Below, one piece after another: positions 5,671 through 42,160 of a stretch of 55,592 nt of DNA. The stretch comes from Adhaeribacter aerolatus (GTDB taxonomy: Bacteria; Bacteroidota; Bacteroidia; Cytophagales; Hymenobacteraceae), in the NCBI RefSeq assembly GCF_007991635.1, contig NZ_BJYS01000049.1:1-55592 (forward strand). Direction: 5' to 3'. Each line of letters opens with the position of its first letter. The stretch's first letter is position 1. The notes under the pieces were generated by a model. It was not told where the DNA came from. It did not search any database and saw nothing but the letters and a program-made list of their open reading frames with translations. Made by a program: the position numbers and the translations under genes.

Positions 5671-6048
5671 TTACCCCGACGATTTTCCATGCTGTTCAAT
5701 CCAGGCTTCCAGCGTTCGTTGCACATTCGGTAAATCCTGCATTACTTCCGCATCCGAAAATCGCAGCACCGTAAAATCTAAAGCATTTAATTCCGCATCC
5801 CGTTGTATATCGGCTTCTGTTTTAAACTGATGCGAATAGCCATCTACTTCTATAATCAGCTTTAATTCTTTACACATAAAATCTGCAATGTAATTGCCGA
5901 CTGGTCGTTGCCTTCTAAAACCATAACCTGCCAACCGTTTACCCGACAATAACTCGCACCACAATCGGATTTCTGCTTTCGTCGAATCGTTGCGGAGGTT
6001 ACGGGCTAGGGGCTTTAGTTTTCTGTTGTAGTGGTTGTTGGGTTCCAT
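5671..6048 (-). CDS. DUF559 endonuclease-domain protein (Vsr-like fold)
   Basis: DUF559 proteins have a PD-(D/E)XK fold related to the very-short-patch repair nuclease Vsr; the biological substrate is unknown. The family signature is present: NDSTKAEIRLW near the N-terminus, then RRQRPVGNYIADF with a conserved Asp, LIIEVDGYSHQ with the Glu/Asp pair, and VLRFSDAEV near the end. I place the start at 6048 (MEPNNHYNRK), giving 125 residues. The frame is open upstream to 6117, but that extra stretch overlaps repeat DNA and encodes a Pro/Gly-rich sequence unlike the family. The gene sits between two family A repeats, three bases from one and 48 from the other, which suggests movement or insertion as a unit. 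Confidence 0.85.
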   Translation of the reverse strand: MEPNNHYNRKLKPLARNLRNDSTKAEIRLWCELLSGKRLAGYGFRRQRPVGNYIADFMCKELKLIIEVDGYSHQFKTEADIQRDAELNALDFTVLRFSDAEVMQDLPNVQRTLEAWIEQHGKSSG

Positions 6049-6096
6049 GTTAATCCTTCCTCCTCCGAGTGGTGACAGATTAGGAGTTGGTGAAAA

Positions 6097-6355
6097 TCCT
6101 CCCCCTACCCCCTCCAAAGGGGGACTTTCGGGTAATGCAGCTTTATACGAAAATGCTTTTGAAGGAGGTTTTTACAAGTTATCGGCAAGCATATTTTCCC
6201 CAACCTACGCACGGCTCCCTTTGAAAGGATTAAAGGTTATTGCCCGGCCAGCGAACCCCAATAACGGAATATATTTTGGCACGAGCTGATAACGCGAACG
6301 GTTTGAAGGTGCACGGACTGCGAACGTCCCCCTTCGGAGGGGGCTAGGGGGAGGA
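6097..6355. repeat. MITE-like element, family A copy 3
   Basis: This 259-bp element has terminal inverted repeats of about 29 bp; the left is TCCTCCCCCTACCCCCTCC and the right is the complementary GGAGGGGGCTAGGGGGAGGA. The internal start GGGTAATGCAGCTTTATACG matches the internal start of copy 1. The left end overlaps the open but probably untranslated extension of the DUF559 gene. A second decayed half-end lies at about 6056-6074. Confidence 0.8.
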
Positions 6356-6799
6356 CTTTCCGGTAAATACCAATTAATACATTTTAACCGGAGAGCATAT
6401 TTAAACAAGCAGCCAAAAATTATTTTAATAGTAACGGCATGAGGCAACTGCACCAACCACCACCAGAACCACTTCGCCTATTGCCTAAAATATTTAAATT
6501 AAAACCATTATAATACAATTAAAAACATTATATTTATATAAACCACTTTCTTTCTTACCACTAACCTAAATATTCCGCATCTTTCTCCGCCAGAGCCGAC
6601 GAACTGATTCGCCATACTTGCTGATTATTTCTAATAACAAGCATTTAATTGCGGGGACAAATATTGAGGCAACCACTTAAGTATCAACCCCACCAATTCC
6701 TTTTATAAAAAGCGGAAATAATGGGGTGGCACTTAGCAGTTTAGGCACAACCATTTGCTTACCCTTATCCGGTAGTTTAATATTTTAAAACCCATCACC
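6356..6799. other. AT-rich intergenic region
   Basis: I see no gene, RNA or repeat here beyond the flanking family A element. The stretch is mainly A/T with poly-purine and poly-T patches and presumably holds the promoter of the gene at 6800. Confidence 0.5.
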
Positions 6800-8641
6800 A
6801 TGAATAAGCTACTGTTTATTGTTAATGCCAACGGGGGTTTTTACTACGACTTGTTTTATTTGCTGGCTTTTTTGGTAGGGTATGTTTTACTGATTTGGAT
6901 TGGGGTTAAACGGCATTACAACCTGGCGGTGTGGCTGCTGGTATTGGCGGCTACGCGGGTGCTGTTTATTCTGGGCACCAAATTGTTTTCGTTTTCGGGG
7001 CAAGAGTGGCAGGTGCTGCTCAACCAGTATTATTTACCGCCGGCTACGGGCAAAACTTTGCTGGGTGGTTTGCTGCTGGTAAGTTTGGGGTACTTTGCTA
7101 TTAAAAAACTGCTGCGGCTTAAAACCGAAACCCTCGATGCTTTTGCCCTGGTTATTCCGTTGTCGATTGCGATGCAGCGGCCGGGCTGTTTGCTGGCGGG
7201 CTGTTGTTACGGTAACATTACGGGGGTGCCCTGGGGCGTGCAATATTTACCCGGCACGCTGCCGCATTACCACCAGTTTCAGGCCGGGCTGATACAAGCG
7301 CCGGAATTATATTCGTTGCCAGTACACCCTACGCAATTGTACGAAGCCCTGAATGGACTGCTGGTGGTGGGCATTTTATTGTTGGTGCGGCGGTATATTA
7401 AAGCGCCCGGCAATTATTTAACCCTTTCGTTTATACTGTACTGTTTCTTCCGGTTCTTCAGCGAGTTTATGCGGTCGCCGCTGGCCCATGCTACCGGGGG
7501 CACGGTAGTGGGCGGACTGATAAAAATACAATGGTGTTTGCTGGCGGTTATTCTGGGGTTGAGCGTTTTATTTATCTATCGCGAAAAATATACAAAACCG
7601 GCTCCGGCCGCCGACCAGCCGCCGGCTATGGCGGTTATGCTTTTGCTGTTAGCGGGCCTGGTAGGTATTACCTGGGGGTTGCGGCACTGGCTTACGTTTA
7701 TCGAGCTGCTGGCCATAAACATGGCCCTGGTGCCGGCCGTGGTTTTTGTGAGCACTTATTTTTTCCGGCATATATTTTTACCGCCGTTCCGCTGGCTGGC
7801 GCTGGGCATCCTGGTGTTGCCTTTGTTACTCATGAGCCAGACCTTGCCCACCGACCAGGACGGCGCTAAACCCGATAAAAATAAAATCAGTTCGTTTAGT
7901 TCTTTTAAAGTAGGGTTTGCCAATGGTAAGTACCAGAACGACCACTCCGTAATTCTGAGCCGGGGCACCGACCCCAACAGTTCCTGCGATGACCAAAGTA
8001 TTACCAAATATTACGAGCAAAAATATACCTTGCAAGGGGCCGGCTACGCTTATACCAAAAAAAGAGAGGATACCGAAATTACCTATGGCCTGAATGCTTT
8101 TGCCGGCAAACACCAGGAAACAGACGTTACCGACAACACCACCATTAGGCAGCCGGTAAAAACCTACTTGTTTGGGGTAAATCCTTACTTTAATTATAAT
8201 GCCAAATGGGTTGGTTTGGGCGGCGGTTTGGTGGCCGGCAACTTACTTATCTCCCGCGAAAACCAGGACAAAGAAGACAATAGCCCGCCCACCTCGGCCA
8301 ATTTTAAAACACCTTTTTACCCGCAGGCCTCTATACGGGTGGGCCCTATCCGGTATTTATTTATGGATTATCAACTGGCCCAGCAGTTTCCTTCGGCTTT
8401 ACCGGGTTTGCGGCACCAGGTAGGTGTGGGCAGCGGCTTTGGCCTCCGGAACGGCAGCTTTTTACGGGCTGGCCTCACTGGCATGGAAGACATATTCGTG
8501 AGCGGCCAAATTATAGTGCAAAACCGCATAGTGCTGGAACCGCTTTACCTGTGGGGCACCTCCCAAACCCCTTACCAGGTGCGCCAACGCCAATTTTCGT
8601 TGGGTTTGCATTACCGGTTTAATTACCAGGAAGCGAAGTAA
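6800..8641 (+). CDS. Lgt-like (prolipoprotein diacylglyceryl transferase family) membrane protein with beta-rich C-terminal domain
   Basis: Residues 1-265 are a polytopic membrane domain of the Lgt family. GGLLL (about 89-93), QRPGCLLAGCCYGNITGVPWG (in two parts, 126-146), HPTQLYEAL (176-184) and RFFSEFMR (218-225) align with the conserved Lgt blocks. In enzymatic Lgt the GGL block is preceded by a catalytic His; here that position is Leu, so diacylglyceryl transfer is doubtful. Residues 275-345 hold two or three more membrane helices. Residues 355-613 have no helices but alternating aromatic/polar strands (KYTLQGAGYAYTKKRE, RYLFMDYQLAQQF, LHYRFNYQ), like an outer-membrane or porin-like barrel. 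A true lgt gene is expected elsewhere. The role is unknown. Confidence 0.75.
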   Translation: MNKLLFIVNANGGFYYDLFYLLAFLVGYVLLIWIGVKRHYNLAVWLLVLAATRVLFILGTKLFSFSGQEWQVLLNQYYLPPATGKTLLGGLLLVSLGYFAIKKLLRLKTETLDAFALVIPLSIAMQRPGCLLAGCCYGNITGVPWGVQYLPGTLPHYHQFQAGLIQAPELYSLPVHPTQLYEALNGLLVVGILLLVRRYIKAPGNYLTLSFILYCFFRFFSEFMRSPLAHATGGTVVGGLIKIQWCLLAVILGLSVLFIYREKYTKPAPAADQPPAMAVMLLLLAGLVGITWGLRHWLTFIELLAINMALVPAVVFVSTYFFRHIFLPPFRWLALGILVLPLLLMSQTLPTDQDGAKPDKNKISSFSSFKVGFANGKYQNDHSVILSRGTDPNSSCDDQSITKYYEQKYTLQGAGYAYTKKREDTEITYGLNAFAGKHQETDVTDNTTIRQPVKTYLFGVNPYFNYNAKWVGLGGGLVAGNLLISRENQDKEDNSPPTSANFKTPFYPQASIRVGPIRYLFMDYQLAQQFPSALPGLRHQVGVGSGFGLRNGSFLRAGLTGMEDIFVSGQIIVQNRIVLEPLYLWGTSQTPYQVRQRQFSLGLHYRFNYQEAK

Positions 8642-8985
8642 TTTTGTGCTTTGAATTTACCAACCTCTTACCTCTAGTAATCTTAGCTTATAACACAAAA
8701 ACATCGGTCTGGCTTACTTCCTCACATAGCTTTGTGCCATACACTCGTTTAAGAAGCTGGCAGCTAAGCGGCTAGATTCCAGCATATTAATTTTTTGACC
8801 AGATTAAAAGGCTTTTCCAAATATTTAAGCGACTGCAAAGTAATTATACAAGCTCCTTAAGGTGCATTTATAATCAGCATGTTTTTTAACCACAACCTGT
8901 TCTTTATATGTTATAATTATCTACGGAACGTGTAAGTTTATATTGTTTTTTGTATTGCATTAGAACTGTTAATTAATAATTCTAT
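8642..8985. other. Intergenic region at the island boundary
   Basis: No gene is seen. Base composition drops to AT-rich across this stretch, marking the change from the Lgt-like gene to the McrBC-like operon. No direct repeat, tRNA or integrase that would mark an attachment site was found. Confidence 0.45.
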
Positions 8986-10020
8986 TTAAACTAGTAAATC
9001 AACAATCTCTAACTTTTCGTTAATAAATTCAAATTCAGCTATTTCTAACATCCTAGATGATGTATAATTAATCTTCGCATCGTAAACTCTACCAATTCCA
9101 ATTTTAGGAAGTATTGACAAAGTAAAAGGAACTTCACTTTTCTCCCTAGATGTATAGAAATGTACCTTTATTTTGCATCTACCTTGCGGCATAATTGGCC
9201 AAAATACATTTTCTTGAGGTTGGCTATCAAAAGGCGACTGAGCGTTTTTATCTATATCTAGTTCTCCAATTATTCCTTTATGTTCTATTATCTTAGAATT
9301 ATAGGAAATTGTACCGCTTGGTGTTTCAACATGCAAATCCAAATCATCAGCAGATTCCCAAGCAAGATTGATCTGCAAAAATCCAGATTCACCAACAACC
9401 ATTTCATTTTTAAGATTATTAAGTCTCGTGATATCTTGAGTTAACTTAAATCTTGTTTCCTCATCAACTTCGGAAGAAACTTCTTCTTTCTGCCTAATAA
9501 TTTGATCAAGCTGCCGGTTGCGCTTTTGTTCTTGTGTTTCTACATTCTTAACAAGTACTGGCTCAATTTCTCCATGTACATTTATCAGTTTTTCTTTTAA
9601 TTTTATAAACCGAATTAATGATTGTAAGTTTATTTTTATATAATAAAGAATTGGAGAATTACCTAGTTTTAATGCACCATAAATACCGTCCTCTTCTGTA
9701 GTCAAATCTTCATCAAAGGTTATAACATATCGAGGCTTGAAACAAACCACTCCTTCTTGGCTTTTTGTTATTGTATTTATAATTTCTTTATATACATAAT
9801 CTTGAACAAAGCTTTCCTCTAAATTCCCAAATTCAATTTCAGTTTTAAGTTTATCAGTATCCAAAGGTTCGAAGTTAACTATACCTCCTTTATCAGAAAA
9901 GAATTGCTCGATAATTGGAATTAAGAATTCATCGTTTACTAATTTCCTTACTCTAGGCTTGAGAGTCATAACAGGATTAAATTGGCTTAAAACACTTTCT
10001 GCCGCATTATGTTTAAACAT
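8986..10020 (-). CDS. McrBC-linked protein with YfaP/DUF2135-like domain
   Basis: This is the third and last gene of the AT-rich operon; its start overlaps the end of the McrC-like gene by eight bases, implying coupled translation. Residues 1-150 are a globular alpha/beta region that I do not recognise. Residues about 155-205 are charged and probably coiled coil. Residues about 212-305 contain LAWESADDLDLHVETPSG, followed by GELDID and a KIKVHFY strand, matching the YfaP/DUF2135 beta-sandwich pattern of W-x(n)-DxDLHV-x-PxG. The acidic DDLDLH loop could bind a metal. No enzyme motif is seen. In this context it may be a structural or sensing subunit of the defence complex. The function is inferred from linkage only. 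Confidence 0.7.
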   Translation of the reverse strand: MFKHNAAESVLSQFNPVMTLKPRVRKLVNDEFLIPIIEQFFSDKGGIVNFEPLDTDKLKTEIEFGNLEESFVQDYVYKEIINTITKSQEGVVCFKPRYVITFDEDLTTEEDGIYGALKLGNSPILYYIKINLQSLIRFIKLKEKLINVHGEIEPVLVKNVETQEQKRNRQLDQIIRQKEEVSSEVDEETRFKLTQDITRLNNLKNEMVVGESGFLQINLAWESADDLDLHVETPSGTISYNSKIIEHKGIIGELDIDKNAQSPFDSQPQENVFWPIMPQGRCKIKVHFYTSREKSEVPFTLSILPKIGIGRVYDAKINYTSSRMLEIAEFEFINEKLEIVDLLV

Positions 10021-11680
10021 ATATTCCCTTCTTTATGTAAAAGTTTTGAACTATGTTAAAATTTATCTTTACCACCTTAATTTGACTTTCATTAAATTTA
10101 CAATTGCTAATCTCTATGTATTTTTTACATGTTTCAAAACTTAAACTATCTGTAAAGCTTGGAATCCAAAATTCACTTTTAGTTTTAACTTTATTGAAAT
10201 TATTTTGAATGGACCACTCATAAACTAGCTGTTTCTTTATATCTTCTTTTATTTTGTTATTACCGTCCTCATCTATAGAGAATTCATTGTACTCATGAAA
10301 AGAACCTTCAGATAGATATTTGTAATCTATAATATAGACCTCACTATTTTTATCCATTAAATCCTTTATATCCGTTATCGGTATAACAGAACTTAATAAG
10401 TAGCTTTCTACTAAATCATTGAACTTATGAAGGCTTTCTTCAGTGAGGTAGTGCACCATTCTACCATCTTCTTGCTTGATTTTAGTTAATAAGTTAAGGT
10501 AATAATTTCTAATTTTCGGATGTATAGATTTAATATAACTATAATCGTTAAATTTCACTTTAAACGTTTTCTCTTTAGTAATCCTATTAAATTTAGGTAG
10601 GACGGAATACAAGTTTCTCTTAACCTTTTCGGTTGATACTGTAGTGAGTAATACTAAATCAGGTCTAAGAGTACGTTTAGCAACTTCTTTATTAAGGGTA
10701 AGTTCAAAAGGATTAATAGTTGATCTTTTATAGGATTTTAAAACTCCCCGTATATCTGCGTACCATTTTAATTCCGAATAAGGATAATTATTTAAGGCAT
10801 AAAATTGACACATATCTTCCCATACATCATAAAAGTTATTCATACCCCAATAAATATCATCCTCATTATCATTTTTCTCTGAATACAAGAAAGCCTCAAC
10901 TGCATTGTAAAAATGCCAATAATCTTCATCCTTATAAATTGTAAATAAATCTATATCATTTAGAATTTCTTTTAAAGTACAAATAGTTGCATTTAGGGTT
11001 TCTTCACTTTCAAATAGTTTGGTTCCAGTATTTAAAAATACTTCTTTAAAGTTTTCTGCTAGTTCAAAAGCTTTCAAAGGAATAGTTGCTAATTCTTCTA
11101 ATTCTTCTTTGATTTCTGTATATATAAAACAAAAGAGTTGTACAAGAGGCGGGCTTTGTTGAATAATCATATTTTTTGAAATATTCATATCATCCAGATA
11201 TACCACATCATCTTCTAGAAAAAATGATTTATGTAAATATAGATGAATTTTAGAGTAGTCTATATCATTACTCTTAACTTGCTTTTTCTCTAATGAACCA
11301 ATCCTAAGTTCATCATAACCCTCAATTATTTTATCTAGTGCATTAATTTTAGAGTATAAAACAATTTCATTTTTATCTTCATTTGAAAAACCAAAACCAT
11401 TAACACTTTCATAAAACCCATCTTTACTTTTAGATATTCCTTGATTTTGGATAAGTTTTTCATACTCTTTTCTTTTAATATACACGCTAAAAGTTCGATA
11501 CATTTTAAAGAAGAAAGATTTTAGATTTATAAAATCTTCTGGAAAATCTTCAAAACCTAATGGAAGCCAAAATTCTAGTTCTTCATTTACCTTATTCCGC
11601 TGTATTCCTACAAACGAATAATGGCTTCTATCCCTTTCAATTCCTTTAATTAGTTTTATATTAGATAGGAGCATAATCAT
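10013..11680 (-). CDS. McrC/LlaJI-like putative nuclease subunit
   Basis: The 555-residue second gene starts inside the end of the McrB-like gene (20-base overlap). The N-terminal half is not recognisable. From about residue 284, YDVWEDMCQFYAL resembles the helix that precedes the nuclease core in McrC, LlaJI and DUF2357 proteins. RPDLVLL (339-345) and YIIDYKYLS (449-457) look like the D and (D/E)xK strands of a PD-(D/E)XK nuclease, and QLVYEWSIQ (484-492) fits the following Gln helix. About 110 residues separate the two catalytic strands, much more than usual, so an insertion domain is likely. Family known: McrC-type subunits cut DNA when driven by McrB. The assignment here is by motif plus neighbour. 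Confidence 0.65.
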   Translation of the reverse strand: MIMLLSNIKLIKGIERDRSHYSFVGIQRNKVNEELEFWLPLGFEDFPEDFINLKSFFFKMYRTFSVYIKRKEYEKLIQNQGISKSKDGFYESVNGFGFSNEDKNEIVLYSKINALDKIIEGYDELRIGSLEKKQVKSNDIDYSKIHLYLHKSFFLEDDVVYLDDMNISKNMIIQQSPPLVQLFCFIYTEIKEELEELATIPLKAFELAENFKEVFLNTGTKLFESEETLNATICTLKEILNDIDLFTIYKDEDYWHFYNAVEAFLYSEKNDNEDDIYWGMNNFYDVWEDMCQFYALNNYPYSELKWYADIRGVLKSYKRSTINPFELTLNKEVAKRTLRPDLVLLTTVSTEKVKRNLYSVLPKFNRITKEKTFKVKFNDYSYIKSIHPKIRNYYLNLLTKIKQEDGRMVHYLTEESLHKFNDLVESYLLSSVIPITDIKDLMDKNSEVYIIDYKYLSEGSFHEYNEFSIDEDGNNKIKEDIKKQLVYEWSIQNNFNKVKTKSEFWIPSFTDSLSFETCKKYIEISNCKFNESQIKVVKINFNIVQNFYIKKGIYV

Positions 11681-12719
11681 TAATAGCCATAACCTTTTCT
11701 ACGAATTTTTTTGCTTGTAATGCTAATTGCCCAAATGTTACTAATTCGCTCTCATGAATTTCAAGAAGTTCATAAAGCGGCTTCTTATTATTTGAAAACA
11801 CACTATCCCAAATGAAGAATAACAACTTATTTTTAATATGTTCTTCTGTTACTTTATCTTCATTTATAAAAAAATAACCAATTTGTTTATCCTCAATTTT
11901 CCTTACTTCTCGGTATTTACTTCTAATAAAAAAATTCAGGTTATCAACAAAATCTGCCCAATTAAACTCTGCTCCATCTATATTTATAACTCTATTTTGA
12001 ACAAAACCTCGTTGATTATCCTCTTCTACATTAATAAATTCCCAATCCCATCTTCGTTTAAAAGCATTATCCATAAAATATATTGAGTTATCAGAGGTAT
12101 TCATGGAAGCTATTAATGACAAATTAGGAGGAAGTGAAATCCGGTGATATTCTAAATCTAATTTTAAGCAATCGACTCTATTTTGAAAAACTAAATAATC
12201 TTGTACTTCATGGGCCTCACCAGGAAACTTATATTCAAACTTATTATCAGCTAACCCTTTAAACTTTACTCCAATTAATTTAAGGATTGCTAGTATTTCA
12301 AGTTCAGTTATATTAATACTATATGACGACCAACCATCAGGTGAACGATCAAGTAATTGAAATACAGTTCCAAATATAGCAGCAGAATTACCTCGATTTA
12401 TTTCATCTATAACAAAGGCAACTCGATCTGCTTCGTATTCCGATTTACCATTTTTTACAGCATCTAAAATATTTTTATATGCTTGTGATAAGGCTTTTAG
12501 AAAATGGCCAGGATAGAAATTATATTCAACTTTCCCTGCTTTAGTATGAGGCACTAATTTACCTACGAAATCACCATATGTATATTCAGGGTGGAATACA
12601 GTTTTTATGATATTAGTTTTTTCTCTAATTTCTAAAATTTCTGGAATGATTTTCTTTTCAATTTTAAAACTCTTTCCAGTACCTGGGCTGCCAAATAATA
12701 TTTTTTGAATTGGACGCAT
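11661..12719 (-). CDS. McrB-type AAA+ NTPase
   Basis: This is the first gene of a three-gene operon. In 352 residues it has Walker A GSPGTGKS (10-17), Walker B VAFVIDEINRGN (100-111) and the McrB hallmark MNTSDNSIYFMDNAFKRRW (206-224), which matches MNTADRS...D.ALRRRF with Arg replaced by Asn. McrB subunits form GTP-driven hexameric rings that power DNA translocation and cleavage by McrC. The Walker A begins at residue 10, so there is no N-terminal DNA- or base-recognition domain; recognition must lie in another subunit or be absent. The bases are much more AT-rich than in neighbouring genes, suggesting transfer. An AT-rich leader lies upstream at 12720-12840. Confidence 0.85.
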   Translation of the reverse strand: MRPIQKILFGSPGTGKSFKIEKKIIPEILEIREKTNIIKTVFHPEYTYGDFVGKLVPHTKAGKVEYNFYPGHFLKALSQAYKNILDAVKNGKSEYEADRVAFVIDEINRGNSAAIFGTVFQLLDRSPDGWSSYSINITELEILAILKLIGVKFKGLADNKFEYKFPGEAHEVQDYLVFQNRVDCLKLDLEYHRISLPPNLSLIASMNTSDNSIYFMDNAFKRRWDWEFINVEEDNQRGFVQNRVINIDGAEFNWADFVDNLNFFIRSKYREVRKIEDKQIGYFFINEDKVTEEHIKNKLLFFIWDSVFSNNKKPLYELLEIHESELVTFGQLALQAKKFVEKVMAINDYAPI

Positions 12720-12981
12720 ATTTTTAATAATTATATATGATTCTAAATATATTATAGCAATATATTTATTTATGCTACATTTATTTAATTTTAAGAATAA
12801 TATATTTTATTAATATTAAACACATGCTGCAAGTTTAAGCACAATGGCAACTTGTGGCTTTTTCTACCAATCTGTAATTGGTGCAAATTGAAAACTTACT
12901 TTCATTTCTACTCCAAGTAAACACTGCGCTGAAACTTGAAGTATAGTTAAAAAGCTAATTACACTATACAATGCTCAGAAA

Positions 12982-13042: not shown

Positions 13043-13483
13043 CTATCGCGGTACTGCTTTGTGGGTACTAATGGCAATGCGGTTCCAGGCATTTATAGCT
13101 ATTACGGCCATAATTAATTGGGCCAGGTAACTTTCGTCAAAAATGGCCTTGGCCTGTTGGTAGGTTTGCTCGGTTAAACCCTGCTGCTGAATAAGGGTAA
13201 CTTCTTCAGTAATGGCCAGCAATACTTTTTCCTCGGGCGTAAATAAATCGGTTTCTTTCCAGGCATTTAATAAAAAAAGCCGCTGGGCGGTTTCGCCGTG
13301 TTTCAGGGCATCTTTGGTGTGCATATCAATGCAAAAGGCGCAGCCGTTAATTTGCGAAGCTCTTATTTTTATAAGCTCTTTGTGAGTTTTAGATAATTGG
13401 GTACCGGCCAGGTAGGTTTCCAGTCCCAACAATGCTTTGCCCGCCAGGGGCTGGGTTGCCAGAATATCGATGCGCTTTTCCAT
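13043..13483 (-). CDS. Carboxymuconolactone decarboxylase/AhpD-like protein
   Basis: This small all-helical protein belongs to the AhpD/CMD superfamily, whose members reduce peroxides through a CxxC pair. The core motif GCAFCIDMHTKDALKHGE (about residues 47-64) holds the CxxC and the following His, as in AhpD-like peroxidases, rather than the decarboxylase variant. The 146-residue length is normal. It lies 79 bases after the Crp/Fnr-type regulator on the same strand, so the two are probably co-transcribed or co-regulated. A redox or peroxide stress role is inferred. Confidence 0.9.
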   Translation of the reverse strand: MEKRIDILATQPLAGKALLGLETYLAGTQLSKTHKELIKIRASQINGCAFCIDMHTKDALKHGETAQRLFLLNAWKETDLFTPEEKVLLAITEEVTLIQQQGLTEQTYQQAKAIFDESYLAQLIMAVIAINAWNRIAISTHKAVPR

Positions 13484-13562
13484 TTGTTTTAAGTTTTATG
13501 GGTATGAATTATTATGCTGTACCAAAGGTCGGCAACGCGCCCCCAAAAAAACTTAAACTGGT

Positions 13563-14138
13563 TTAAGAACGCTTTTTACTTCTGATTTCGCTCAGGTATT
13601 CGGGGGTAAAACCTAAAAAGGAGGCGAGTAAATATTGCGGAATGCGCTGCACAAATTCCGGGTAATGGTCCAGGAAATGGTAAAACAATTCTTCGCGCGA
13701 TAAATCGTATAAATATTTGATGCGCATTTGCGAGGCGGCAAAGGCGCGTTGGTAAACCATCCGGAAATACCGCTCCAGTTTGGGATGCTGGTGCAGCAAG
13801 GCTTCCTGCGCCTGAAAATTAATACACAATAGCTCTGTGGGTTCCACGGACTGAATAAAAAACGCGGTAGGTTGCTGCTTTTCGTATGCCAGGTTATCGG
13901 TGAGCCACCAGTTTTCAATGGCAAATTCGGTGGTTTGTTCTACGCCTTTATCGTTAATAAAAAATTTGCGGAGGCACCCTTTTAAAACAAAATAATGGTG
14001 CTTGCAAATTTGTCCGGCCGTTAGCAGGTTTTCTTTCTTGGGCACCCTAACTTGTTCAAAATAACCGCAAACGTCCGCAAACTCTTCCGGGCTTATCGTT
14101 ATAAATTTATCTAGGTGGTTTTTAAATACTGCTGACAT
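13563..14138 (-). CDS. Crp/Fnr-family transcriptional regulator
   Basis: Residues about 15-125 form a cyclic-nucleotide-binding-type beta-roll (VPKKENLLTAGQ, HHYFVLKGCLRKFF, TEFAIENWWLTD). The C-terminus has a short winged-helix region (YLLASFLGFTPEYLSEIRSKK) with a recognition helix. The 191-residue length matches the many Bacteroidota Crp-like regulators that lack the Fnr iron-sulfur cysteines. The effector is unknown. It is followed at 79 bases by the AhpD-like gene, which is its likely target or partner. Confidence 0.9.
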   Translation of the reverse strand: MSAVFKNHLDKFITISPEEFADVCGYFEQVRVPKKENLLTAGQICKHHYFVLKGCLRKFFINDKGVEQTTEFAIENWWLTDNLAYEKQQPTAFFIQSVEPTELLCINFQAQEALLHQHPKLERYFRMVYQRAFAASQMRIKYLYDLSREELFYHFLDHYPEFVQRIPQYLLASFLGFTPEYLSEIRSKKRS

Positions 14139-14209
14139 GGCAATTGGCTTAAGCTACCTAAAGCTAGAAATTAAAAGCACCCGATAAAATATTTATTAGG
14201 CGTTCCAGG

Positions 14210-32352: not shown

Positions 32353-33195
32353 CTACAAGGAGAAAACGACGGATATTTAAATTCGGATGCCGACTTTTAT
32401 ACCACCATTGTTGAAAACAGCGGCAAAGAAACTATTATTTTACTGCACGGCGGCCCGGGTGTTCCCGATGGCTTAACTTTTATAACAAAGTATTTAAGCC
32501 GGGACTTTCAGGTTATTCATTTTCACCAGCGCGGCACTTTAAAATCGCCTTGCCGGAGTAATAATTATTCGCTGGATAGCTATATCTCGGATATTAACTG
32601 CATAGCCGATTATCTGGGAGTACCAAAATTCCATTTATTTGGGCACTCCTGGGGCGGATTGTATGCGCAAATTTACGTCCAGCACCATCCCGACCGGTTG
32701 TTGAGTTTGTTTTTGTGCAGTCCTGGTTCTGGTACCGGCCGGCAATGGAAAGATGCCATGCTGGAAGTTGCCCGTTATACCAAAAACCGAAGCAGCTTAG
32801 TAGAGTGGCTTAACCTGAATATTTATTCTGCGCTAGGTCTACTGGGCAGCGACCGCGCTTATCAAAAATTTTACTGCTTGGTCCTCACCAATTTTAACCG
32901 TGGCTTCCGCGAAGATCAGCCGGAACATTTCCGTTTCCACTGCATCAAGGCCAAAGTCATTAACCAAACCACCAAAAATATACTTACTGCCCCGGTACTC
33001 CCGGTTTTAACCGACCCAGGATTCAGGATAACCATAGTGTACGGCAACAGTGACATATTTGGGGAGAGTAATAAATATATTATCCAGCGGCACCCCTCGG
33101 CTGCTGTTCTTTATATTCCGGAAAGCGGTCATCTGTCGTGGTCGCACAACCTACGGGTATTTGAGCCCATTTTGCAGACACACTTTAACCTATAA
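32353..33195 (+). pseudogene. Alpha/beta hydrolase without usable start codon
   Basis: From 32353 to 33195 one frame reads as a complete alpha/beta hydrolase: ILLHGGPGVPDG (oxyanion region), GHSWGGLYAQ with the Ser nucleophile, VYGNSDIFG with the Asp, and PESGHLSWSH with the His. It resembles the proline iminopeptidase group. Between the in-frame TAA at 32350 and the HGGPG motif there is no ATG, GTG or TTG. The 5' end has therefore been lost or shifted by a nearby mutation, or an unusual start is used. A TTG at 32659 would give only the C-terminal half, after the nucleophile. The body shows no other damage, so the change looks recent. Confidence 0.6.
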
Positions 33196-33906
33196 GATAG
33201 AGGCTCTCGTTAAATATTAATAATCTCTAGTATTTATAAATTTAATTATAATATATATTTAAATAATATATTAATTAGATTAATCAATATGAGTATATTT
33301 AAATAAAATATAAATTTATTTAAATTTAAATTTGCTTTCTGAATTAAAGTATTTTATATTTATAGCAAATAAAAACCCCTGATATTTCGGATATTTTTTT
33401 CAGAAAGGGCAGATCGACACTGCGGGAAAGTAGTATTATTCTGCATAAACACAACCTCTTACCTAAAATATTTATACAAATAAAAAATGGCTTATGTTTT
33501 TTTAGCAAATTTAATTTAGTAGCCTATGACTAAAATTTAACTACTTTTTTAATTATTTTCTGTATATACCATGTGGCTTAGTGCTTCTAAGCCCAAGTAC
33601 GATTACGTGATATTACCATTGCCCATATTGCATTTTTTTTATTCTACAAAAAAAAGATCCTAACAAATTCTTAAGGTTAATTTTCTATACAGGAATTTTC
33701 TGGAGTAAAGCACGCCTTTTTTAAGGTATTAGGTTGGATATTGCTTCAACTTCAAAGCTATTTTAAGATCAAAACTTCGTTTTAATTAGTATTATCATAT
33801 AATTTATAGGAAATTTTATAAAATACAAATCACACCTATTCTCAATTAGTACTTCAACTTATCTCAAAAATTTAAATCTTTTTTCAAACCTTTTTTATTT
33901 ATTATC
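33196..33906. other. Very AT-rich 0.7-kb leader region
   Basis: This is the most AT-rich stretch of the window, with long runs such as TATATTTAAATAATATATT. No gene is seen. It separates the damaged hydrolase from the tandem secreted-protein genes and presumably carries their promoter and possibly a long leader. No riboswitch or clear terminator was recognised. Confidence 0.5.
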
Positions 33907-34323
33907 ATGAAAACTAAAATTCTTTCTCTCGCCACCCTCCTCATCACCCTCTTAAGTGTTGTAAATGTCTCTGCGCAAAATATACACTTTGTTGGCACAC
34001 CATGCTATGATGCTGCAACCAATACTGTTTCCGGTAAAGTAGCAGGCTTAGGAAATAATGCCAGCGGCCTTACCATAACCATAACCGGACAATATGGCTG
34101 TGATAACCCGGCGGGCAATAAACCACCTGCCTGGCAAAATTTCACCATAAATAATATTCCCCTAGCTAATTCTGGTAAATCCGGGCAGTATACATTTTCA
34201 GCTACTTTAGGAAGTCTGCAAAGACCTTGTCCTAACTCAAATTGGGAGGTTGTGTTCCGAAGCTTTGTAGCAAAAGTAGCCACCACAAATTTATCAAGTC
34301 CGGTTTCTATGACTTGTCCATAA
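33907..34323 (+). CDS. Secreted protein, tandem paralogue 1
   Basis: This 138-residue product has a clear signal peptide (MKTKILSLATLLITLLSVVNVSA, about 1-23), so it is exported. The mature part is about 115 residues, rich in Gly, Asn, Thr and beta-branched residues, suggesting a small beta-sandwich. It shares with the next gene the QNxHF start, a CxNPxGNxxP block (CDNPAGNKPP) and a PCPNxxW block (PCPNSNWEV), and has paired cysteines that may form disulfides. I know no named family. The pair may be surface or matrix proteins, or ligands for the receptor encoded downstream; that is inference from position only. Confidence 0.7.
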   Translation: MKTKILSLATLLITLLSVVNVSAQNIHFVGTPCYDAATNTVSGKVAGLGNNASGLTITITGQYGCDNPAGNKPPAWQNFTINNIPLANSGKSGQYTFSATLGSLQRPCPNSNWEVVFRSFVAKVATTNLSSPVSMTCP

Positions 34324-41806: not shown

Positions 41807-41952
41807 AAGGCAGTGTCAACGTGGCAATCATTTTTTACCAGCGCCGAAATTACGTAAATCCATCAGGAAATTTTTTATTTAAATTTTTCGATATTCCAGT
41901 TTCCGGCGTAACAGCTTACCTGGAAATTGAACAGCTGGTAACCTAAGAAAAA

Positions 41953-42160
41953 GCCCCGAAGGGGCGCCATATATCAGCGATGGGTGAAGCCCATCGGAAG
42001 AATAATCGATATTTTACAAGCGCTGAAAGCGCAAAACACCCAGCTACTAGAGAATAGAAATAAATATTAAGAATTATTTCGCCTTTAGGGCTTTGTAGTA
42101 TATTTATTCCCAGAGCTGCACCCTGGGCTAGTGTATTAGGCCCCTTCAGGCTGTGCTTTA
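41953..42160. repeat. Array of short hairpins (palindromic element)
   Basis: This gene-free stretch contains a series of small perfect hairpins: GCCCCGAAGGGGC (41953-41965), CGATGGGTGAAGCCCATCG (41978-41996), GCGCTGAAAGCGC (42020-42032) and CCCAGAGCTGCACCCTGGG (42109-42127), with a weaker one near 42081. Such GAA-loop hairpin arrays remind me of dispersed palindromic elements in Bacteroidota genomes. No second copy is in this window. An open minus-strand frame over it (41943-42197) is not believed to be coding. Confidence 0.5.

Follow-up and report, generated by a model that had tools for sequence, protein, structure and literature searches.

Does the minus-strand operon of three overlapping genes at positions 8986-12719 of the Adhaeribacter aerolatus contig NZ_BJYS01000049.1 encode a McrBC-like defence system with an additional subunit, and where would such a machine hold its specificity? 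The preliminary description of this stretch of 55,592 nucleotides, called the window hereafter, had read the operon as a transferred anti-phage system made of a McrB-type NTPase, a McrC/LlaJI-like nuclease and a non-standard third subunit. By its sequence, the encoded machine is of the McrBC/LlaJI lineage, with a short AAA+ subunit and a third subunit that is present in every locus found. It is probably a horizontally acquired three-subunit restriction nuclease, in which inserts most likely recognise the DNA and which most likely cuts modified DNA. In the boldest reading, the motor and the nuclease would both hold exchangeable specificity modules. The features are the following, where identities within clade I (10 sequences) and clade II (8 sequences) of the relatives are, here and below, mean pairwise values.

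8687..12890, no strand: variable slot, not matched by blastn in the syntenic stretch of a same-genus relative; GC 29.0% vs 45.3% in the remaining window
11661..12719, minus: gene 1, predicted McrB-type AAA+ NTPase, 352 aa, without N-terminal DNA-reading domain
12669..12692, minus: Walker A motif GSPGTGKS, from residue 10, placed by motif position
12390..12413, minus: Walker B motif VIDEINRG, from residue 103, placed by motif position
12144..12329, minus: variable insert of the AAA+ domain, residues 131-192, drawn from clade I pairwise identity
12090..12104, minus: MNTSD, from residue 206, an NxxD motif as in McrB
10013..11680, minus: gene 2, putative McrC/LlaJI-type nuclease subunit, 555 aa
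10646..10666, minus: RPDLVLL, from residue 339, first half of the PD-(D/E)xK site
10340..10645, minus: hypervariable insert from PD to DxK, residues 346-447, candidate recognition module
10316..10333, minus: IIDYKY, from residue 450, second half of the nuclease site, with D452 and K454 unchanged in all 18 aligned rows
8986..10020, minus: gene 3, conserved third subunit, 344 aa
9574..10020, minus: gene 3 N-terminal domain, present in all 19 loci, with a fusion to gene 2 in L024 and L025
9397..9573, minus: gene 3 helical linker, with helices predicted at residues 163-182 and 187-204 of the model
8989..9396, minus: gene 3 optional C-terminal beta-sandwich with a DDLDLHV motif

The overlaps of 20 and 8 bases described earlier were recovered from the list of open reading frames (ORFs), and the four motifs quoted with them, GSPGTGKS and MNTSD in protein 1, RPDLVLL and IIDYKY in protein 2, were all located by residue; protein 2 also presents a WEDMC motif at residue 287. 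Since M-F-D-[LIF] is the opening of most nuclease relatives, translation of the nuclease gene probably begins two codons after the ATG of the list, which would shorten the first overlap to 14 bases. The claimed AT-rich island is plain in the composition of the slot, and per kb the GC fraction is 0.27-0.31 across 9-13 kb and 0.43-0.44 in the adjoining kb on either side. No TAnnTTTG, which we take to be the Bacteroidota-type promoter element, was seen within the 323 bases upstream of gene 1.

Gene 1 is, on sequence evidence, a McrB-type AAA+ NTPase, as first proposed: a profile search of the PDB matched McrB of T. gammatolerans with an E-value of 4.8e-27 and that of E. coli with 9.5e-15. In the libraries it matched AAA_5 only in Pfam and two REase_II models in PADLOC, and the NCBIfam McrB model gave 38.9 bits, far under its cut-off of 637. 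The AAA+ domain begins at residue 3 and, since the Walker A motif already stands at residue 10, gene 1 lacks the DNA-reading domain that McrB and R1.LlaJI carry at their N-terminus. Of the 18 gene 1 rows, 3 (L020, L024 and L025) are extended at the N-terminus by about 75-80 residues.

For gene 2, the profile scored 38.8 against the LlaJI nuclease subunit, while 100 shuffles gave at most 26.5, with a hhalign probability of 26%; the VWE, D-x-K and DI.KQ motifs of the LlaJI nuclease align with those of gene 2. The Pfam family RE_LlaJI had no match in gene 2 (R2.LlaJI itself matches at 3.8e-31). The structure model of a gene 2 relative, a weak one, has as best match YdjA of the YdjA-YdiS entry 9a5m, and the next four matches are McrBC entries. 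These data support gene 2 as a McrC/LlaJI-type nuclease subunit, and the lack of a nuclease fold, which would have told against the preliminary description, was not encountered in so far as a weak model can recover that fold.

The constancy of the arrangement was followed in the relatives. By tblastn of plasmid records the whole operon was found in Hymenobacter canadensis (gene 3 coverage 99%, identity 40%); Geminocystis and Nostoc gave the AAA+/nuclease pair, followed in both by a gene for a short homologue of the N-terminal part of gene 3. A pattern-based scan of a genome collection with the nuclease alignment (one genome per species, 84,980 species) yielded 14 loci, and with four-seed profiles these and the 3 plasmid loci all carry the three genes in order; L054 of genome G547, from a later genome search with the nuclease alignment, has all three as well. 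With the window included, gene 3 is present in 19/19 loci in the order AAA+, nuclease, third gene, so that the conservation expected of the third gene holds throughout this branch and McrB/McrC-like pairs without it, which would have spoken against its role, number 0 of 19. The searches used the nuclease and not gene 3, and all four seed operons had gene 3, so distant pairs without it could be missed. Of 50 plasmid records matched by gene 1, eight more distant loci (L041-L048) were looked at, and in seven of them (L041, L043-L048) no third subunit is evident from the annotation, the gene 3 profile not having been run there. The same-order homologues in 18 further loci, together with a GC below that of the flanks in 17/17 relatives measured, argue that the operon is real and not a chance arrangement.

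The operon is rare. In samples of genomes that overlap each other, gene 2 was found in 1 of 395 genomes of the phylum, the window's own, and the nuclease profile matched 2 of 395 of the class, the window's own included; gene 1 at an E-value of 1e-60 was found in 1 of 296 genomes, the centre, G547 itself, and a four-row gene 3 profile in 3 of 395, that of the window and two with the C-terminal domain only. Neither gene 2 nor gene 3 had relatives among the IMG/VR viral contigs, and the phage records, searched with gene 2 and not with gene 3, gave none either. No description of this operon was found in the literature searched, which does not cover a further McrBC publication announced in the available part of PMC11090510. 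DNA-cutting defences of a widespread class thus gain a rare branch whose third subunit is constant, and of which the Pfam and PADLOC libraries used recognise only the AAA+ protein.

Gene 3 had no Pfam, NCBIfam or PADLOC family at cut-off, and no homology to the third protein of LlaI (hhalign probability 0.5%) or to R1.LlaJI. In L024 (Anabaena) and L025 (a Rickettsiales metagenome-assembled genome) the gene 3 domain continues the nuclease as a C-terminal fusion, and in L013 the gene is cut by the contig end. The C-terminal domain is, judged from these sequences, optional: it is fused in 6 of the 19 loci (window, L005, L012, L014, L015 and L016), was not found in 11, is cut off in L013 and is separate in L019, where the N- and C-terminal domains form two ORFs (L019:9568-10663). 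The structure model of gene 3 has a pLDDT of 69.2 and a pTM of 0.40. Over residues 161-340, which the fold comparison covers, the C-terminal part scored 6.9 with 9a6r_B, 6.7 with 3ibz, 6.4 with both 2qng and 2qz7 and 6.2 with 2kxt; DUF4425 and other beta-sandwiches scored 5-6.2, and none reached 8. Foldseek alone returned nothing below 0.001 for this model. As SCP2 of 9a6r_B is presumably a TerD relative, the model weakly suggests a C-terminal domain that is TerD-like in fold only.

The DDLDLHV motif would, to our mind, suggest a YfaP/DUF2135 protein, an assignment that we do not make, the Pfam E-value being 0.17 in one of four domains only. Relatives of this domain also lie in proteins with signal-peptide-like starts, at L055:2891-3961 and L056:4841-5893, so that its use is not confined to such operons. 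TerD genes beside the operon were rejected as a general link, with Pfam TerD matches in 2/112 neighbour ORFs; the candidate TerD gene at L012:4571-5167 is not borne out by its sequence, and a TerD-like motif was seen in L023:2221-2799.

Strongly variable stretches lie inside the motor and the nuclease. In clade I the nuclease identity is 63% over the first 312 residues, 44% over residues 313-345, 16.5% over residues 346-447 and 55% over residues 448-550, and that of the AAA+ insert, between Walker B and MNTSD, is 29% vs 64-66% around it, the protein identities of the inserts resting on one multiple alignment. In 45 of 45 clade I pairs the 346-447 insert, from RPDLVLL to IIDYKY, is less identical than both its flanks; the nucleases of L013 and L017 are 8% identical in the insert and 83% and 81% in the flanks. 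A separate pairwise alignment of the DNA of these two loci, in 90-base windows, gave 79-91% identity over the nuclease gene at about 8156-8876 of L013, a fall to 50-67% across 8876-9398, 81-90% over 9398-9938, where the nuclease gene ends and gene 3 begins, and then 63-76%; the AAA+ gene is at 46-80% over full windows. The dissimilar block begins just after the WEDMC codons and takes in the PD motif, being somewhat larger than the insert, and the fall and the return of identity each take one or two 90-base windows. The distance from PD to DxK, start to start, is 87-121 residues in clade I and 13-18 in clade II, where a variable stretch lies before PD (37% over residues 313-447 vs 69% and 51%). 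The window, L012 and L013 have one common type of AAA+ insert (56-79%). Insert identity does not follow that of its own protein core (rho 0.08 for both inserts), and the two cores do follow each other (rho 0.61); no probability is given, as the pairs are not independent. The correlation of the two inserts is weak (rho 0.30) in such pairs, and their joint evolution is not claimed.

The nuclease insert therefore looks like an exchanged recognition module, in so far as alignments can tell. McrB GTPase domains often hold inserts that likely encode specificity domains, according to the part of Bell et al. (PMC11090510) available. We propose tentatively, and with somewhat less than even confidence, a new McrBC-type branch that chooses its target via an exchangeable cassette lying around as well as between the two parts of the nuclease active site, with a dedicated third subunit and a further variable insert in the motor. 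If true, an exchange of some hundred residues within the nuclease would turn one conserved machine to other targets. The close pair L013/L017, with its unlike inserts, offers a natural experiment on whether specificity can lie inside a McrBC-like nuclease domain.

From these data we infer how the machine may assemble, cleave, depend on modification and use its inserts. Gene 1 would form an NTP-driven AAA+ ring on which gene 2 would dock, carrying the PD-(D/E)xK nuclease, and the nuclease subunit would always need gene 3 as its partner. As gene 1 is without the N-terminal DNA-reading domain, recognition would most likely reside in the fast-evolving modules, of about 100 residues in gene 2 and about 60 in gene 1. 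The target would most likely be modified foreign DNA, in a Type IV-like manner.

The latter point rests on the methyltransferases. Pfam methyltransferase families were absent from the 10 neighbouring window ORFs (2.8-22.4 kb), neither PF00145 (C5 methyltransferase) nor PF01555 had a match in the host genome, complete by the tool's estimate, and the incomplete gene tables of the L005-L007 stretches list no methyltransferase. As there is neither a linked methyltransferase nor a C5 family match in the host, the window data speak more for a McrBC-like enzyme that requires modification than for a Type II enzyme with its own protection. Several results pull the other way: the host has four PF02384 and one PF02086 N6 methyltransferase matches, all on other contigs, so that a cognate N6 enzyme might protect in trans; PF00145 occurs somewhere in 11 of 13 genomes searched, as does PF01555 (11 of 13), which tells against modification dependence as a general rule; and in 6 of the 8 distant LlaJI-type plasmid loci (L041-L046) methyltransferase genes or fragments are annotated beside the AAA+ gene. 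A classical methylation-sensitive Type II-like system, protected by a methyltransferase elsewhere in the genome, would agree with the first and the last of these results; given the neighbourhood without methyltransferases and the missing families of the host, we hold it to be quite unlikely. A methyltransferase motif scan, with candidates in L006 and L020 out of 17 and none in the window, was not relied on, as it missed both control enzymes of L041. It is very improbable that the operon encodes a stress or abortive-type effector, with the McrBC motor acting on another substrate such as RNA and the TerD-like domain as a sensor of ions or of a small ligand: MNTSD is of the NxxD form, while CoCoNuTs have NxD in the available part of PMC11090510, D452 and K454 are conserved throughout, and the TerD-like domain, not found in 11 of 19 loci and cut off in one more, cannot for that reason be a core part.

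The place of recognition admits two other explanations. Gene 3 could be a detached DNA-reading subunit that gives specificity in trans, the inserts being structural; the lack of the N-terminal domain in gene 1 (three rows have an extension there), the presence of gene 3 in every locus and the unique N-terminal half of R1.LlaJI, which is the LlaJI specificity subunit in the available part of PMC1459862, would all agree with this. Nevertheless, a reader of changing targets should vary most, and the gene 3 N-terminal domain belongs to the better conserved parts (51% in clade I vs 16.5% for the nuclease insert), the DNA of L013 and L017 being alike at the start of gene 3, to about 9938, and unlike in the insert; a detached reader is thus unlikely. 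Alternatively, the variability of the insert might reflect relaxed constraint or a misaligned surface loop and not recognition, as the region is unmodelled (pLDDT under 50), has a gap fraction of 0.25 and owes its low identities to the multiple alignment. However, the inserts, of 85-119 residues with 35-46% hydrophobic ones, do not have a composition typical of disorder, and the abrupt drop and recovery of DNA identity lies between genes that are otherwise 79-91% alike, so that we regard this explanation as rather unlikely. Recognition within the inserts remains the reading that we prefer.

The genomic setting bears on transfer and function. In the same-genus relative G395, the only informative one for the slot (four other fetched stretches had no LGT gene nearby), the flanks of the slot are matched at 83% nucleotide identity over 6094-8686 and 89% over 13257-14194, with a 70% stretch from 12891, and the slot holds about 7.5 kb of other DNA, also AT-rich (33.0% GC). 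Its genes are a Type I methyltransferase (E 1e-180), PtuB (5e-69), PtuA (8e-157) and a Type I specificity subunit (9e-82), and it further holds the candidate system PDC-M21A/B. The PtuA/PtuB-like Septu genes stand between the methyltransferase and specificity genes of the Type I-like system (L036:6801-13707), and no HsdR-sized ORF was seen in this slot. In the nuclease tree, several inner forks of which are weak, cyanobacteria (L014, L015 and L018) stand inside the otherwise Bacteroidota clade I, and the Rickettsiales genome, which may be misbinned, stands beside Anabaena in clade II. The tree, the low GC and the different slot content support the horizontal transfer that had been proposed.

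Defence genes neighbour several loci, not all. L005 lies on a plasmid with DruA, a SspH-like protein (7e-72), an AbiEii-type gene and an integrase; near L007 there are HerA- and DEAD-helicase-type matches and ArdA, and the close relatives L021 and L023 have an AbiLi/PDC-M38A ATPase. Of 10 neighbours tested singly, 2 matched the AbiLi/PDC-M38A ATPase, 7 had no match and 1 was of GlgB type, taken as a housekeeping enzyme. The 112 neighbour ORFs of 12 loci, many of them housekeeping genes, matched 41 PADLOC families at 1e-10, many of which overlap on the same few ATPases. A constant absence from defence islands, which would have weakened the preliminary description, is thus not what the loci present, and we infer an anti-phage function of the operon from this context.

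Further observations were made at these loci. Two DEAD/DEAH helicases of the Nostoc plasmid flank a tRNA-guanine transglycosylase gene (L007:15009-18867), and one of these helicases has a DpdF match (E 2.3e-19) among stronger HamB matches; this cluster may point to 7-deazaguanine DNA modification near the operon. In G395, a carboxymuconolactone decarboxylase-like gene (L036:6356-6609) looks broken, since two overlapping matches cover only residues 1-85 of 146. The window itself has a DUF559 (endonuclease-like) protein at 5671-6117 (Pfam E 1.3e-31), near which stretches match G395 at more than one place and may be repeats, a further AT-rich dip at 33001-34000 (GC 0.294) and an Acido-Lenti-1 RNA match at 41952-41996 (39.6 bits, E 1.5e-5).

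Among known systems stands BsuMI of Bacillus subtilis, whose restriction genes we take to be YdiR, YdiS and YdjA and which, unlike the window operon, has methyltransferases of its own. The likeness lies in the three ORFs and the short AAA+ protein, a McrB-like one of 343 aa in the BsuMI cassette (PMC1459862, in the part available). Additionally, no fold matched the nuclease subunit better than that of YdjA. The cassette at L042 is, by its size and order, presumably LlaI of Lactococcus, and it resembles the window operon in having, in this order, an AAA+ protein of 337 aa, a LlaJI-family nuclease and a third gene. It differs by adenine methylase fragments nearby and by its third protein (L042:7432-8673), which has no Pfam match and no similarity to gene 3 and carries a HExxH motif, presumably of the ImmA/IrrE type. 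LlaI is a three-ORF system with a LlaIB of 337 aa in the same part of PMC1459862. Therefore, of the claim of a non-standard third subunit, the constant third gene stands, and the novelty of three genes as such is lowered by the LlaI and BsuMI precedents (PMC1459862).

The McrBC systems of E. coli and T. gammatolerans share with the window operon the NxxD AAA+ motor, the McrC-type fold and the lack of a linked methyltransferase; the window operon differs from them by a gene 1 without N-terminal reading domain, a third gene and about 100 residues from PD to DxK. LlaJI of pNP40 has a McrB-like and McrC-like pair, with nuclease motifs in line with gene 2, but it consists of two genes with a long R1 and its N-terminal specificity region (PMC1459862, in the part available), and has two linked cytosine methyltransferases, whereas none is linked to the window operon. 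CoCoNuTs, a subclass of the Type IV systems, have an NxD motif in the GTPase, whereas MNTSD of gene 1 is NxxD; nevertheless they combine, like the window operon, a McrB/McrC core with extra components, and inserts of the GTPase domain are noted for McrBC generally in the available part of the same source (PMC11090510).

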